Positions 56,628-61,848 of a stretch of 64,000 bases of DNA are shown piece by piece (the first letter of the stretch is position 1; every line of letters starts with the position of its first letter). The translations under genes and the position numbers were made by a program. Source of the stretch: Candidatus Woesearchaeota archaeon. GTDB taxonomy: Archaea > Nanobdellota > Nanobdellia > Woesearchaeales > UBA10216. Location: the NCBI GenBank assembly GCA_016185705.1, contig JACPMZ010000010.1, forward strand, positions 126,913 through 190,912, read 5' to 3'. The notes under the pieces were generated by a model that worked only from the letters and a program-made list of their open reading frames with translations, was not told the origin of the DNA and searched no databases.

Positions 56628-57077
56628 TTATCTTACCAGCTTGTTTATCTCTTCCTGGAATTCTTTTACGTCTTCTATTTCGCGGTAGACGGCAGCGAAT
56701 CTTATGTATGCTATTTTGTCAAGCTTCCTGAGTTTTCTCATGACCAGTTCGCCTATGGTTTTGCTTTTGACTTCCTGGCCATCCAGTCTTCTTAAGTCTG
56801 ATTCAATTGAGTCTACCAATGCGTCTATCTGCTCGATTGATATGGGCCGCTTTTCGCATGCCTTCTGCACCCCTGTTTTCAGCTTTTCCCGGTTGAACTG
56901 CTCTCGCCTGCCGTCTTTTTTCACGACTGTAAGCTCAAATTCTTCAACCCTTTCATAGGTTGTGAATCGCTTTTTGCAGCGGAGGCATTCCCTCCTTCTT
57001 CTTGTAACTGAGGCGTCCTGTGGCTCCCGCTTGTCCACTACTTTTGTGTCCCTTGACTCGCAGTATGTGCATTTCAT
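56628..57077 (-). CDS. nrdR: Transcriptional repressor NrdR
   Basis: 149 residues, full length. N-terminal zinc ribbon CTYCESRD...CLRCKKRFTTYERVE and an ATP-cone (about 50-135) that senses ATP/dATP; represses ribonucleotide reductase genes. Typical of bacteria. Last gene of the reductase operon, with the adenosyltransferase upstream. Two NrdR-box-like sites lie at the head of the operon, so the circuit looks complete. Confidence 0.95.
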   Translation of the reverse strand: MKCTYCESRDTKVVDKREPQDASVTRRRRECLRCKKRFTTYERVEEFELTVVKKDGRREQFNREKLKTGVQKACEKRPISIEQIDALVDSIESDLRRLDGQEVKSKTIGELVMRKLRKLDKIAYIRFAAVYREIEDVKEFQEEINKLVR

Positions 57078-57171
57078 TTTTGTTCACCAAAAATTAAGCT
57101 ACGAACGCAGTGAGTTTGTTTCATTTTTGTTCACCAAAAATTAAGCTACGAACGCAGTGAGTTTGCTTCAT
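57074..57171 (-). repeat. 47-bp tandem repeat at the adenosyltransferase/nrdR junction
   Basis: Two full units with a period of 47 bp (units begin at the CATTTTTG at 57075 and 57122; a third begins at 57169 and is cut short). Each contains CACCAAAAATTAAGCTACGA and ACGCAGTGAGTTTG. The unit includes the ribosome-binding GGTGA and start region of nrdR and the end of the adenosyltransferase gene. Confidence 0.9.
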
Positions 57172-57700
57172 TTTTGTAGTTGTACACGGGATTTTTTTCT
57201 TTTATGCTGCTTTGCTGGTTTTCGTATCTCATGAGCATGTAAAGCAGGGAGGATAGTCTGTTGGAATATTTTAGCAGCTGTTCATTCAGCTTGCTTTTCC
57301 TGTCGAGCTTTACAAGCACGCGTTCGGCGCGCCGCGCAATGGCTCTGGACATGTTTAGCATCATTGCTGCCTGCGTTCCCTGCGGTATTATGAATTTGCT
57401 TTGTGCAGGCAGTTGCTGCTGCAGTTTGTCTATGAGTTTTTCCGTGTTTTTTACGTGCTTTTCTTCTATTCCCACTTTTGCGGTGTTTGCGAGTTCTGCT
57501 CCGATGGTGAACATGTCATTTTGCACTTCCTGGATTATCAGCTTGGATGTTTTGTTCGCAGAGAAAGACGCTGCAGCTCCCAATGCCGCATTCAATTCGT
57601 CTATTGTGCCTATTGCTTCTATCCTGTCGTCGTGCTTGTCCACTTTTCCGCCGAATATGCACGTTTCCCCATTATCCCCTGTCCGGGTGTAGCATTTCAT
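57146..57700 (-). CDS. ATP:cob(I)alamin adenosyltransferase (PduO type)
   Basis: 184 residues from ATG 57700, overlapping the upstream stop as TGATG. YTRTGDNGETCIFGG at the N-terminus is the ATP-binding signature; EAIGTIDELNAALGAA and RAIARRAERVL are also typical. Makes adenosylcobalamin, the cofactor of the NrdJ reductase encoded just upstream in the same operon. The last residues (EANSLRS) come from the 47-bp repeat. Confidence 0.93.
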   Translation of the reverse strand: MKCYTRTGDNGETCIFGGKVDKHDDRIEAIGTIDELNAALGAAASFSANKTSKLIIQEVQNDMFTIGAELANTAKVGIEEKHVKNTEKLIDKLQQQLPAQSKFIIPQGTQAAMMLNMSRAIARRAERVLVKLDRKSKLNEQLLKYSNRLSSLLYMLMRYENQQSSIKEKNPVYNYKNEANSLRS

Positions 57701-57828
57701 CATACATCGCATTTGCTGAAGCCGCAATCCTCGTTGAGGCATGAGTGGCATCCGTTTTCTATTTTTAGCGTGCTTTGGCTGCATGACGGGCACTGCACGA
57801 GCTGCATGTCATTGGCTTTCAGCTCCAT
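57700..57828 (-). CDS. Separate Cys-rich C-terminal tail of NrdJ (42 aa)
   Basis: 42 residues: MELKANDMQLVQCPSCSQ, then C-x-x-C at CHSC, and a last DCGFSKC. It starts with ATG immediately after the in-frame TAA of nrdJ, so it is the same reading frame. Class II reductases normally end in such a cysteine-rich, zinc-ribbon-like segment that carries reducing equivalents to the active site. Here it is a free small protein, or is added by read-through of TAA. Overlaps the adenosyltransferase start. Confidence 0.75.
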   Translation of the reverse strand: MELKANDMQLVQCPSCSQSTLKIENGCHSCLNEDCGFSKCDV

Positions 57829-60800
57829 TTACTTCACCTCGGCCGTCACCGGCTCTTTCCGGACTGCTATCTTCTTTTCTTTCATTGCGTGATATACTGT
57901 GGTTAGCGTTCCGTCTGGCAGGGTTATTATGTCTGAGCCTTTTACCTGCACTTTTTCTCCGTTTACTTCAGTTTCGAAAAGTTTGTCTTTGTAGTCCTGG
58001 AAATCTGTTTTGGCTTCATCCGAGCTCAGTATCGGGTATCGTGACCCTGCCCTGTATATCGTAACGCCTTTGAGCCCGTTCTTCCATGCGTCCATGTATA
58101 TGCTTGATATTACTTCGGGATGTATGTCTTCCGGCAGGTTGATTGTTGAAGAGATGCTGTGGTCTATGTACTTTTGCCAAAGCCCCTGTATTTTGATGCG
58201 CTTCTCCGGGTTTATGTGGTGCGCTGTTCTGAAGAAGTGCTTTGGCAGGATTGCGACAAGCTCTTCAGATGATTCAGATTTCTGCGCTGTTTCCGACAGC
58301 CCGGTTTGCTGCAAATATGCATCTACGGTTGAGTGGAATACCTTGAATCTTTTGTTGCCGAACGACTCGGAGCGCCTTGTGTAGTAAAGCGCAAATATCG
58401 GCTCTATGCCGCCGCTTACTCCTATGAAGTTCTTTTCCCCTATATTGTATCCCAGAACTATGCTTGATATTGTGCCTGTTGGCGCTATTGAGAGTATGGC
58501 GATGTTTCTTAGCCCTTTGCTTCTGATGATTGCGCGAGTATCCCCGTCCAGTGCTTCCTGGAAGAACGCACCCCTGCTGTATTCTTCGTAGTTGAATATG
58601 GCTGACTGCCCTTTCTCCTCTGCAAGCTCTGCGCTTGCCATGTATGCTGTGTTTGCAATTACTCTGGCAACTTCTTCAAGTATTCCGATGCCTTCCTCAC
58701 TGTCATAGCCAATTCCGAGCTGGTTCAGCATGTCTGCTATGCCCATTACTCCTAAGCCCAGTCTCCTTGTTTCCAGCGCTGCTTTTCTCTGTTTTTCAAG
58801 CGGATTAAGCAGCTCGTTCCATATCACCACGCTGTCAAGGAATCTTGTTACCAGTGCAGTTGCCTCCCTCAAAGCTCCCCAGTTGATTTTCGCTTCTTTC
58901 GTGTAGCCGTCTATGACAAACCGCGACAGGTTAATTGAAGCCAGGTTGCATGCCCCGCCGTCTTCAAGAGGGACTTCTCCGCAATTATGCACGACTAAGC
59001 CGTTTGCTATGAATGAGTGTGTTTTAGGTTCTGTTATGTCCCACACTTCTTTTTTACCTACAAATTCCTTTGCTTTTACCTTATCAGCGAATGTTTCTTT
59101 GTAAAATTCAAACTGCTCAAGCAAATCCACTCTTTCTTTATGCCTTTGTTGAGCAAATATAATTCGACTGGTAAATTTAGGAATGTTTTCTTTGCTTATA
59201 TTAAGTTCGTAGTTTGTGCCAGATGTTCTGTACTTAATAATATCCCCTTTTTTATTTTCATATCGGAATGTCTTTGATTCTGTTGATCGGTCATAGAGCG
59301 TGCTCTTAATGCCAAGATTCAATAGAAGCAGCTGCACTTGCTTAATGAATTTCAAAGAACTTGAGTTTAATCTTATATAGTTTCTGCTTTTTGTTCCCAT
59401 GCCTATTGTTCCATCTGAAGAAAACAATCCTTCTAAGAAACCAACTACAGCTTCTTCTGTAGCCGTAAACAATGCTTCAGGCACTTCCCTTTCAACATTT
59501 GCATTTTTAACTCCTAATTTTTTAAAAAAGTCAATTACATACTTGCTGGAAGATCTTATTTGAACGCAGCCATTAGGATAATTTACCTCTCTTATTTCTC
59601 TGTTGCAATATTTTTCAAATATTGGTTGTATGATTTTCCTTGCTTCAAAATCTTGTTTCGCAAAAACAAGTCCAACTTTTTTATAAGAATCATTTAAGAA
59701 TCCGTCCCCGCATAGCCATCCAATTAATAGTCCCAATTCCCTGGTCCATTTTGTTGGCAGGTTTAGATTATAGGTTCTTCCATTTCTACCTATTATCCTA
59801 TTGTTTACTTCAATAGGCAGCTTAGAATCTCTGTTAAAGCTTCCCCTTCCCGATTGTATCAGTACTGAATCCTCTTCTGTTATTTCTGATAGTTCTTTCC
59901 ATCCTTGTTGTGTCAGCAACTTATGGTCTGGAGTGGTAACTATTTCGTATCCAGACACTGTTTCTAATTTATAGCAGTCCTTAAACCCAGTGATCATCCT
60001 GTTTGATGGCTCTACTAGTTCACAACCATACTGAACTGTTAACAGGTCTGAATCATAATTGTAAGTTCTTTTGTCAACAACTATCTTTTCAGCTTGTATA
60101 CTATCCACTCTTTCCAACCCTCTCGATGTGGATATTAAACTATCTGCAGAAACGCAAGGATTAGTGCTGAGTATCGGCTTTCCGACGTAGTTTGATGGCG
60201 AATACTTGGTCATTGTGCTCCAGAATATCAGCCCCGGCTCTGCTGTTTTGTAGTTTCCTTTCACAAATGAGTTCCATATTTCCCTTGCTTTCACCAGCCG
60301 CTTGATTTCTTTTGTTTGAGGGCTGTTGAAGTACAGCATGAAGTCTCCTGCCTTTTTGATTGCAAAATCATACTCGCTGACCTGGCTCTTCACCACAAGG
60401 TCGCCGAACATGTCTCTTGCTTCAGGGCTGTTCAGCTGTTCTTCTGTGACTGTTTTGGCATCGTTCTTTTCAAGGTATGAGTTGAGCTTTTCGATGCTGT
60501 CAAAGGATTCCATAAGCTGGTAGCGCTCTATTGGCTTGGAAGGTATGCCGTATGAGTAGTGGACTGAGCCGCCCTGCGCTACTCCCAGTCCTGAGACCTC
60601 GCGGTCCTTTCTGTAGAGAAGTATGTTGTCCTTGTGCTGGGCTTGCTCTTCAACTGCCTGCATGAACTCGTCAGACACCTTTATGCTTATGTTGGCAAAC
60701 CTTACCTGCGTGTTTTCCCTTACCTGCTGCTGGATTATGTCAAGCTGCTCGCGCGTAAAGTTTCCTGTCCATTTGCACTGCTCCACTATCTGGTTCGTCA

Positions 60801-61848
60801 CCCAGTTTGGAATGTTTTTTACATCAATAAACAGCGGACTGTCAGGGTGCTTGATGTCAATTGTCAGCATTAATGCGCCTCTCCTTCCGGACTGGCCTAT
60901 CAGCCCTGTTGTCAGCGAGAATATTTCCATGAACGAGACGCTGCCTGTTGAGCAGTCTGCTGCATTGTGCACGATTGAATCCTTCGGCCTTAAAACAGAA
61001 ATATCCACTCCTATGCCGCCTCCGTAAGAGTATGTTCTTGCGCATTCATACGCTGCTTTGTATATTGATTCTATGTTGTCATCCTCTATTATTGATACAA
61101 AGCAGTTTGCCATTGTTTTCAGCCGGTACAGGTCTCCGCCGCCTGCTATCACTCTCCCTCCCGGCAGGAACTGGCCTGCATATAAGCTCTGGTAGTAGTG
61201 CTCTGCCCATTCGCGCTGCTTTTCCTCTGTTGGCTCAACAGCAGCCATGAACGCAGCTAATCTTGCAAACGCGTCTTCCGGCTTTTTCTCTATGCGCTCG
61301 TTCTTCAAATCCTTGAGGTAGTATTTTTTTTCGTATATGTTCAGCGCAAGCTCATTGCTGTTCAGATAGTTCTTGTTTACAGGCAGCTTGCCTGCTTTCT
61401 GAAGCAGCTTGATGTGGAACAGCAGGTTTTTGTACGCTTCCAGCCGGTCATACCCTATTAATGATGCCAGTTTGCTTTTGTGCGCAAACATGTCCAGCAA
61501 CGCAGTTTTTTCATTGTCGCTTCCCTTTGCTGACTCAGCGGCTGCTGCCCGGAGCTCTGCCCTTTTGGCTCGGTAAAGAATGTATGCCTTGGCAGTTTTT
61601 GCATGCCCGTCTTTTATGAGCACTTCTTCAACTACGTTCTGCACATCCTCGACATTCGGTATTTTCTCGGTGAAGCGCTTTTCTATGATGTCAACAACCT
61701 TCTTGGACAGCTTTTCAGCAGTCTTTATGTCATCGCCGCCCATTGCCGCTGCTGCCTTGAAGATGGCTTTTGTTATCTTTTCTTCGTCAAAATCAGCGGT
61801 GCTGCCATCCCTCTTGATGATTTTTGCAATTTTCTGTTTGGATGCCGT
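57829..61848 (-). CDS. nrdJ: Adenosylcobalamin-dependent ribonucleotide reductase NrdJ with intein
   Basis: 1339 residues if read from ACG 61848; 1304 from the first ATG (61743). ATP-cone (KIIKRDGSTADFDEEKITKAIFKAAAA, in outline) lies before that ATG in the same frame, and AGGTGA sits 6 bp before the ACG, so ACG is the better start. Catalytic part: ANCFVSI (redox Cys), NP/CGE (radical Cys, interrupted by the intein), and GGACNLASINL (redox Cys). Without intein about 948 residues. The protein ends without the usual Cys-rich tail, which follows as a separate ORF. Reduces ribonucleotides to deoxyribonucleotides. Confidence 0.93.
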   Translation of the reverse strand, partial: TASKQKIAKIIKRDGSTADFDEEKITKAIFKAAAAMGGDDIKTAEKLSKKVVDIIEKRFTEKIPNVEDVQNVVEEVLIKDGHAKTAKAYILYRAKRAELRAAAAESAKGSDNEKTALLDMFAHKSKLASLIGYDRLEAYKNLLFHIKLLQKAGKLPVNKNYLNSNELALNIYEKKYYLKDLKNERIEKKPEDAFARLAAFMAAVEPTEEKQREWAEHYYQSLYAGQFLPGGRVIAGGGDLYRLKTMANCFVSIIEDDNIESIYKAAYECARTYSYGGGIGVDISVLRPKDSIVHNAADCSTGSVSFMEIFSLTTGLIGQSGRRGALMLTIDIKHPDSPLFIDVKNIPNWVTNQIVEQCKWTGNFTREQLDIIQQQVRENTQVRFANISIKVSDEFMQAVEEQAQHKDNILLYRKDREVSGLGVAQGGSVHYSYGIPSKPIERYQLMESFDSIEKLNSYLEKNDAKTVTEEQLNSPEARDMFGDLVVKSQVSEYDFAIKKAGDFMLYFNSPQTKEIKRLVKAREIWNSFVKGNYKTAEPGLIFWSTMTKYSPSNYVGKPILSTNPCVSADSLISTSRGLERVDSIQAEKIVVDKRTYNYDSDLLTVQYGCELVEPSNRMITGFKDCYKLETVSGYEIVTTPDHKLLTQQGWKELSEITEEDSVLIQSGRGSFNRDSKLPIEVNNRIIGRNGRTYNLNLPTKWTRELGLLIGWLCGDGFLNDSYKKVGLVFAKQDFEARKIIQPIFEKYCNREIREVNYPNGCVQIRSSSKYVIDFFKKLGVKNANVEREVPEALFTATEEAVVGFLEGLFSSDGTIGMGTKSRNYIRLNSSSLKFIKQVQLLLLNLGIKSTLYDRSTESKTFRYENKKGDIIKYRTSGTNYELNISKENIPKFTSRIIFAQQRHKERVDLLEQFEFYKETFADKVKAKEFVGKKEVWDITEPKTHSFIANGLVVHNCGEVPLEDGGACNLASINLSRFVIDGYTKEAKINWGALREATALVTRFLDSVVIWNELLNPLEKQRKAALETRRLGLGVMGIADMLNQLGIGYDSEEGIGILEEVARVIANTAYMASAELAEEKGQSAIFNYEEYSRGAFFQEALDGDTRAIIRSKGLRNIAILSIAPTGTISSIVLGYNIGEKNFIGVSGGIEPIFALYYTRRSESFGNKRFKVFHSTVDAYLQQTGLSETAQKSESSEELVAILPKHFFRTAHHINPEKRIKIQGLWQKYIDHSISSTINLPEDIHPEVISSIYMDAWKNGLKGVTIYRAGSRYPILSSDEAKTDFQDYKDKLFETEVNGEKVQVKGSDIITLPDGTLTTVYHAMKEKKIAVRKEPVTAEVK
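58984..60156 (-). other. Intein with LAGLIDADG endonuclease in NrdJ
   Basis: 391 residues from Cys (CVSADSLISTSRG) to His-Asn (VVHN), next extein residue Cys. Blocks A (start), B (ETVSGYEIVTTPDHKLLT), F and G (TEPKTHSFIANGLVVHN) are present, so self-splicing should work. Two LAGLIDADG-like helices, LGLLIGWLCGDGFL and VVGFLEGLFSSDGTI, keep their acidic residues, so the homing nuclease may be active. The DNA is visibly richer in A and T than the flanking extein. Insertion site is NP|CGE. Confidence 0.92.

Follow-up and report, generated by a model that had tools for sequence, protein, structure and literature searches.

A split class II ribonucleotide reductase in a woesearchaeal genus, with a free 42-residue zinc ribbon as its probable redox subunit

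How does a class II ribonucleotide reductase (RNR) obtain its electrons when the cysteine-rich tail expected at its end lies behind a stop codon? The question is raised by nrdJ in the window, a 64,000-nucleotide stretch of a Candidatus Woesearchaeota genome that is available as a draft assembly (14 contigs; 95.6% complete). All features of the window described below lie on the minus strand.

The nrdJ locus and its separate tail gene

The gene nrdJ (57829..61743) encodes the catalytic chain of a class II RNR. Its product matches PF02867, PF00317 and, in a profile search, TIGR02504 NrdJ_Z with 475 bits, passing the curated cut-off of 400, and a domain search places an ATP cone at its N-terminus. 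It is 1304 aa long with an intein and 913 aa without it. Once the intein is removed, the active-site motifs NCFVS, NPCGE and GACNL are all present, and their cysteines are invariant across the NrdJ alignment. By family model and motifs, this is a class II RNR, predicted to depend on adenosylcobalamin. We found no other RNR in the window genome, which holds one PF02867 locus and no NrdD; NrdJ is therefore probably essential, and so is the tail.

On inspection of the sequence, the last 85 residues of NrdJ hold no cysteine. The gene ends in TAA (57829..57831), which directly abuts an ATG, the junction reading ...GCC GAG GTG AAG TAA ATG GAG CTG... on the minus strand. The frame that starts there (57700..57828) encodes the 42-aa protein MELKANDMQLVQCPSCSQSTLKIENGCHSCLNEDCGFSKCDV, with cysteines at residues 13, 16, 27, 30, 35 and 40, and closes with TGA at 57702-57700. 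Both points of the sequence-only reading, that nrdJ ends in TAA with an immediate ATG and that 42 residues with six cysteines and a TGA follow, are borne out, the first by the minus-strand sequence and the second by the open reading frame 57828..57700. Homology, alignment and modelling lead us to annotate this frame as a free redox tail, a six-cysteine zinc ribbon that may be seen as a minimal NrdJb.

In a scan of all six frames of the window, 766 stop-to-stop stretches had a length of 30-60 codons, and one of them carries the six-cysteine pattern; the tail is thus not a chance match. Alone, it aligns to the final 34 positions of PRK08665, an NrdJ model (E 2e-4). When the NrdJ end and the tail were joined into one query, fused NrdJ proteins were matched over the full length in the genomes G006 (7e-37), G007 (2e-26) and G010 (2e-24). 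By these matches, the tail is a homologue of the covalently attached NrdJ tail of other genera of the family. A PDB sequence search with the tail returned short CPxC matches alone, to Nop10 and similar proteins. As for a second tail elsewhere in the window genome, two weak matches were unconvincing; the one examined, L003, matches only in part and in a frame that holds no gene.

Downstream, the ATG (57703 or 57700) of a PduO-type cob(I)alamin adenosyltransferase gene (57146..57703; PF01923, 5e-46; TIGR00636, 162 bits with a cut-off of 108) overlaps the tail stop. The product of this enzyme is the cofactor of NrdJ, and the overlap of its gene with the tail gene is in line with the predicted adenosylcobalamin dependence. 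Next comes nrdR (56628..57077; PF22811, PF03477), a regulator of ribonucleotide reductase genes. The order nrdJ, tail, adenosyltransferase, nrdR suggests a putative operon. A search near nrdJ with a bacterial-type consensus found no NrdR box.

A Shine-Dalgarno-like GAGGTGA (57834..57840) lies 5 nt before the tail ATG, within the last codons of nrdJ, and similar GGTGA motifs stand before several closely spaced genes of the window. The sequence-only reading mentioned neither this motif nor the intein. Shine-Dalgarno use in the window genome is modest, with such motifs before 11 of 60 first ATGs as against a background of 7.5% at internal ATGs, and this counts against a tail start aided by such a motif. 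The archaeal 16S rRNA gene (G000:C5:80520-81655) is incomplete in this assembly; it matches in three pieces and runs off the contig end.

A gene split shared by three species

A separate tail frame is found in all three species of the genus, namely the window species, L035 (genome G001) and L034 (genome G002). The nrdJ stop is TAA with the tail in frame 0 in the window genome, TAG with the tail in frame +2 in L035, and TGA with the tail in frame +1 in L034. The junctions read GAGGTGA-AGTAA-ATG in the window, GAGGTGA-GTAG-ATG in L034 and GAGGTG-TATGGA-ATG in L035, so that GAGGTG(A) and an ATG stand at the tail start in each of them. The spacing of GAGGTG(A) is kept relative to the tail ATG and varies relative to the nrdJ stop. 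Most simply, the three junctions would be read as translation starts at the tail ATG, whether coupled or independent. Reinitiation or coupling is a plausible source of the separate tail, given that the stop abuts the ATG in the window and that the motif lies inside the end of nrdJ.

These junctions also bear on whether the TAA is read through (recoding) to give a fused protein, alone or alongside the free tail, as the sequence-only reading had considered. Fused tails are known in other genera of the family and the tail is in the nrdJ frame and free of stops in the window genome, yet in the window genome only. Across the genus the tail occupies frames 0, +1 and +2, and since it is out of frame in L034 and L035, readthrough cannot give a fused protein there; the same frames speak against the proposed mixture of readthrough and reinitiation. 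The shared frame in the window genome thus appears to be a coincidence. The start codon and the Shine-Dalgarno-like motif at the junction in all three species argue against readthrough as well, and TAA is the stop codon least linked to natural readthrough. We consider readthrough very improbable.

Still less credible is a sequencing or assembly error that put a stop into a fused gene. In a draft assembly of 14 contigs one base change could indeed create a TAA, but the three genomes were assembled separately and show three different junctions, each with its own ATG, which one sequencing error cannot explain; the neat overlap of the tail with the next gene is also against it. Judged by these comparisons, the split is a real and conserved gene split and a property of the genus. 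The comparison with relatives that the sequence-only reading had proposed thus finds the tail separate in all three species and fused in other genera.

The tail is under purifying selection in the genus. Pairwise comparison of the 34 codons common to the three species gives 11-17 synonymous changes, whereas codons that differ in amino acid account for 0-4 changes; dN is 0.01-0.08, and dS is 1.1 and 1.5, with one pair saturated. The six cysteines are invariant in an alignment of 15 tails of the free, fused and NrdJb types. It might be supposed that the tail is a decaying relic and that NrdJ is reduced directly by another dithiol, and the fact that some related NrdJ proteins have a short C-x12-14-C end and no zinc ribbon shows that the ribbon is replaceable. 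Nonetheless, with dN far below dS, all six cysteines kept, no alternative terminal cysteine pair in the window NrdJ and no second RNR to take over, decay is hardly to be expected, and the earlier statement that the tail is not decaying holds. The earlier option of a free redox-tail protein is well supported by the same data, that is, by an own ATG, GAGGTG(A) and purifying selection in 3/3 species.

Redox tails of related NrdJ proteins

We classified the tails of 60 NrdJ proteins whose identity to the core is 54% or more. The tail is fused to NrdJ via a linker in 15 of them. For most of the nearest relatives retrieved outside the family, the tail sits on a longer, separate protein that resembles NrdJb. 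NrdJ of relatives in Marinimicrobia, Ignavibacteria, Bacteroidota, Kiritimatiellae and some archaea ends at the same place as in the window, and the tail closes a second protein, about 200-330 residues long. The TSCPD domain was present in both such proteins tested (L018 and L058). The long form (L058, L053, L085, L018, L055 and others) is widespread and reaches beyond the Proteobacteria of the 2015 description (PMC4520616). In 11 of the 60 no zinc ribbon was within reach; seven of these end in C-x12-14-C, and the others are cut by contig ends or lie in low-quality sequence. The seven are archaeal (L020, L021, L023, L025, L027, L065 and L070; e.g. VCKIEYVNGQLVKSCGD), and they apparently combine the same core with a redox tail of another kind.

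A short free tail was found in five of the 60: the three species of the genus, L087 from an Aenigmatarchaeota MAG (42 aa) and L050 from a Diapherotrites MAG (89 aa). A scan of 371 genomes from the phylum for frames of about 40-55 codons that match the tail strongly found them in the three species of the genus only, and L087 itself is the one short free tail in the 19 genomes of its family. In the NrdJ tree L087 groups with the genus, weakly (83/72), and L050 is placed elsewhere, so that by this tree a short free tail originated, or was retained, on at least two occasions. A tree constrained to group all fused NrdJ proteins of the family was not rejected (p-AU 0.10), and the change may have gone from fused to split or from split to fused.

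According to the sequence-only reading, other class II enzymes carry the tail covalently attached. This stands in so far as fused forms exist; it does not stand as a general statement, since a separate NrdJb is known (PMC4520616, PMC5704485) and most near relatives outside the family have the tail separate. In Pseudomonas aeruginosa, NrdJb is a protein of 229 residues that acts in trans with NrdJa (PMC4520616, PMC5704485), with a stoichiometry near 1:1 and an apparent Kd of 54-690 nM depending on the ligand (PMC4520616). The window pair resembles NrdJa and NrdJb in having a catalytic chain without C-terminal redox cysteines and an adjacent gene for a six-cysteine zinc-finger protein, and thiol-disulfide exchange in trans is presumed for it as well; by this analogy the two pairs probably work alike. 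They differ in host, P. aeruginosa as against a DPANN archaeon, and in that the zinc finger of the P. aeruginosa NrdJb is preceded, in its subclass, by an IscU-like domain (PMC9669993) whereas the window tail has 42 residues and no TSCPD. A search for the TSCPD domain (PF12637) came up empty in all 19 genomes of the window family, including the rest of the window genome.

The long NrdJb group (L058, L053, L018 and L055) shares with the window the NrdJ end and the tail on a separate downstream protein, but that protein has about 200-330 residues as against 42. With the cysteine-rich domain (CRD) of the fused dimeric NrdJ of Stackebrandtia nassauensis and Thermotoga maritima the tail shares a six-cysteine array in the same order and with similar spacing; there, however, the domain is covalent and has 150-220 residues (PMC5704485), whereas the window has the terminal ribbon only, and free. 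The fused NrdJ proteins of the sister genera (L005/L046, L009/L044, L019/L036 and L037-L043) have a core 65-72% identical, the same tail and no TSCPD; in them a linker of about 30-56 residues joins tail and core. Since the two-gene layout and a six-cysteine second protein are found and TSCPD is absent, the window pair is best called a minimal NrdJb variant rather than a standard member.

In 2015 the split class II RNR was described, among non-viral organisms, only from some Proteobacteria (PMC4520616); it is also found in phages (PMC3653736). Our comparison extends split class II enzymes to archaea and to relatives in Marinimicrobia and Ignavibacteria. A literature search, with subscription journals largely outside its reach, came upon neither an account of a redox tail pared down to a free zinc ribbon nor one of such a split in DPANN archaea.

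Some arrangements of related genes are worth recording. In the genus g10 (L010-L014, L016, L017, L037, L038 and L040-L043) and in L039, the NrdJ tail with six cysteines is fused, and a second, free six-cysteine microprotein of about 38 residues, of the type CPNCGG...GTCFSC...CGWGIC, is encoded directly behind nrdJ, in the position that the free tail has in the window; it is possibly a second redox ribbon. Genome G006 carries two class II reductases in tandem (L046:698-3700, then a 722-codon frame from about 3690), the first being a relative of the window NrdJ with a fused tail, the second a divergent NrdJ with its own six-cysteine tail. The plasmid matches that we examined, L098 among them, are single long reductase genes.

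Proposed function of the free tail

Modelling of the tail gave a ribbon of four strands (mean pLDDT 79.6); a structure search in the PDB gave no significant match, only weak zinc-ribbon look-alikes. For the fused relative L046, AlphaFold2 predicts a core and, after it, a small strand-rich segment (residues 895-949). Next come a linker that is disordered in the model (943-967; pLDDT about 26-46) and, last, the ribbon. Alignment places the gene split of the genus in this linker, so that both folded parts are predicted to stay whole. An extra C-terminal domain of NrdJa was suggested to aid NrdJb binding (Burnim et al., PMC9669993), and the strand-rich segment of L046 may be its counterpart.

In Stackebrandtia NrdJ, C920, C923, C936 and C939 are proposed zinc ligands and C933 and C945 the redox pair; turnover with TCEP needs all six cysteines, and DTT can bypass the tail (PMC5704485). 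By order of the cysteines in that enzyme, C13, C16, C30 and C35 of the free tail would be zinc ligands and C27 and C40 the redox pair.

Taken together, we regard it as quite probable that this is a split class II RNR whose redox subunit is a free 42-residue zinc ribbon that has a coupled start and reduces NrdJ in trans. Ribosomes would finish NrdJ at the TAA and restart at the abutting ATG, aided by GAGGTGA, releasing the tail as a separate protein. After each turnover C27 and C40, held close by zinc on C13, C16, C30 and C35, would re-reduce the active-site disulfide of NrdJ in trans, and the tail would then be recharged by a cellular dithiol, for example a glutaredoxin-like protein. Two such proteins are encoded in the window genome (G000 C14:220200-220379 and C7:21721-21900), where the thioredoxin matches all fall below the curated cut-off. 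Translation, coupling, zinc binding, docking, electron transfer in trans and the identity of the reductant are the inferred elements of this scheme. As the known trans-acting NrdJb has a TSCPD or IscU-like domain and the tail has none, docking of the tail is putative. A counterpoint is that the separately expressed Stackebrandtia CRD failed to restore TCEP-dependent activity (PMC5704485).

Perhaps the tail has been repurposed, for example for zinc delivery or as a general disulfide carrier or regulator, and does not reduce NrdJ at all. The microproteins of the second type that lie behind fused-tail nrdJ genes in g10 and L039 imply that free ribbons need not share this step. Against repurposing, the free tail is 68-74% identical to the fused tails of the family, as expected for the same job, and its gene stays beside nrdJ; we consider this change of role improbable, though less so than readthrough or decay. 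A bolder form of reduction in trans, which is possible but rather doubtful, would have the tail as a diffusible, minimal, self-folding redox carrier for NrdJ, thioredoxin-like and not tightly docked, with the free ribbon of g10 supplementing the attached one. If this is true, the covalent swinging tail of an RNR has been turned into a soluble mini-redoxin.

Returning to the reduction of NrdJ by a redox subunit encoded next to it, the tail bears on the docking of the C-terminal redox module in class II enzymes and on the question of which reductant serves it. Work with larger modules has met with the poor solubility of Pseudomonas NrdJb and the aggregation of the isolated Stackebrandtia CRD, for which thioredoxin and glutaredoxin both failed as reductant (PMC4520616, PMC5704485). 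The conservation of a 42-residue module as a separate protein points to the IscU-like domain being dispensable in this lineage, and a partner so small is amenable to synthesis, mutation and titration.

Finally, the LAGLIDADG intein of nrdJ (58984..60156; 391 aa; PF14890 Intein_splicing, PF14528 LAGLIDADG_3) has the boundaries C...VVHN|C. In the sister species L034, nrdJ is free of it. The insertion site lies directly before the cysteine of NPCGE, the presumed thiyl-radical cysteine, and unspliced NrdJ should therefore be inactive.
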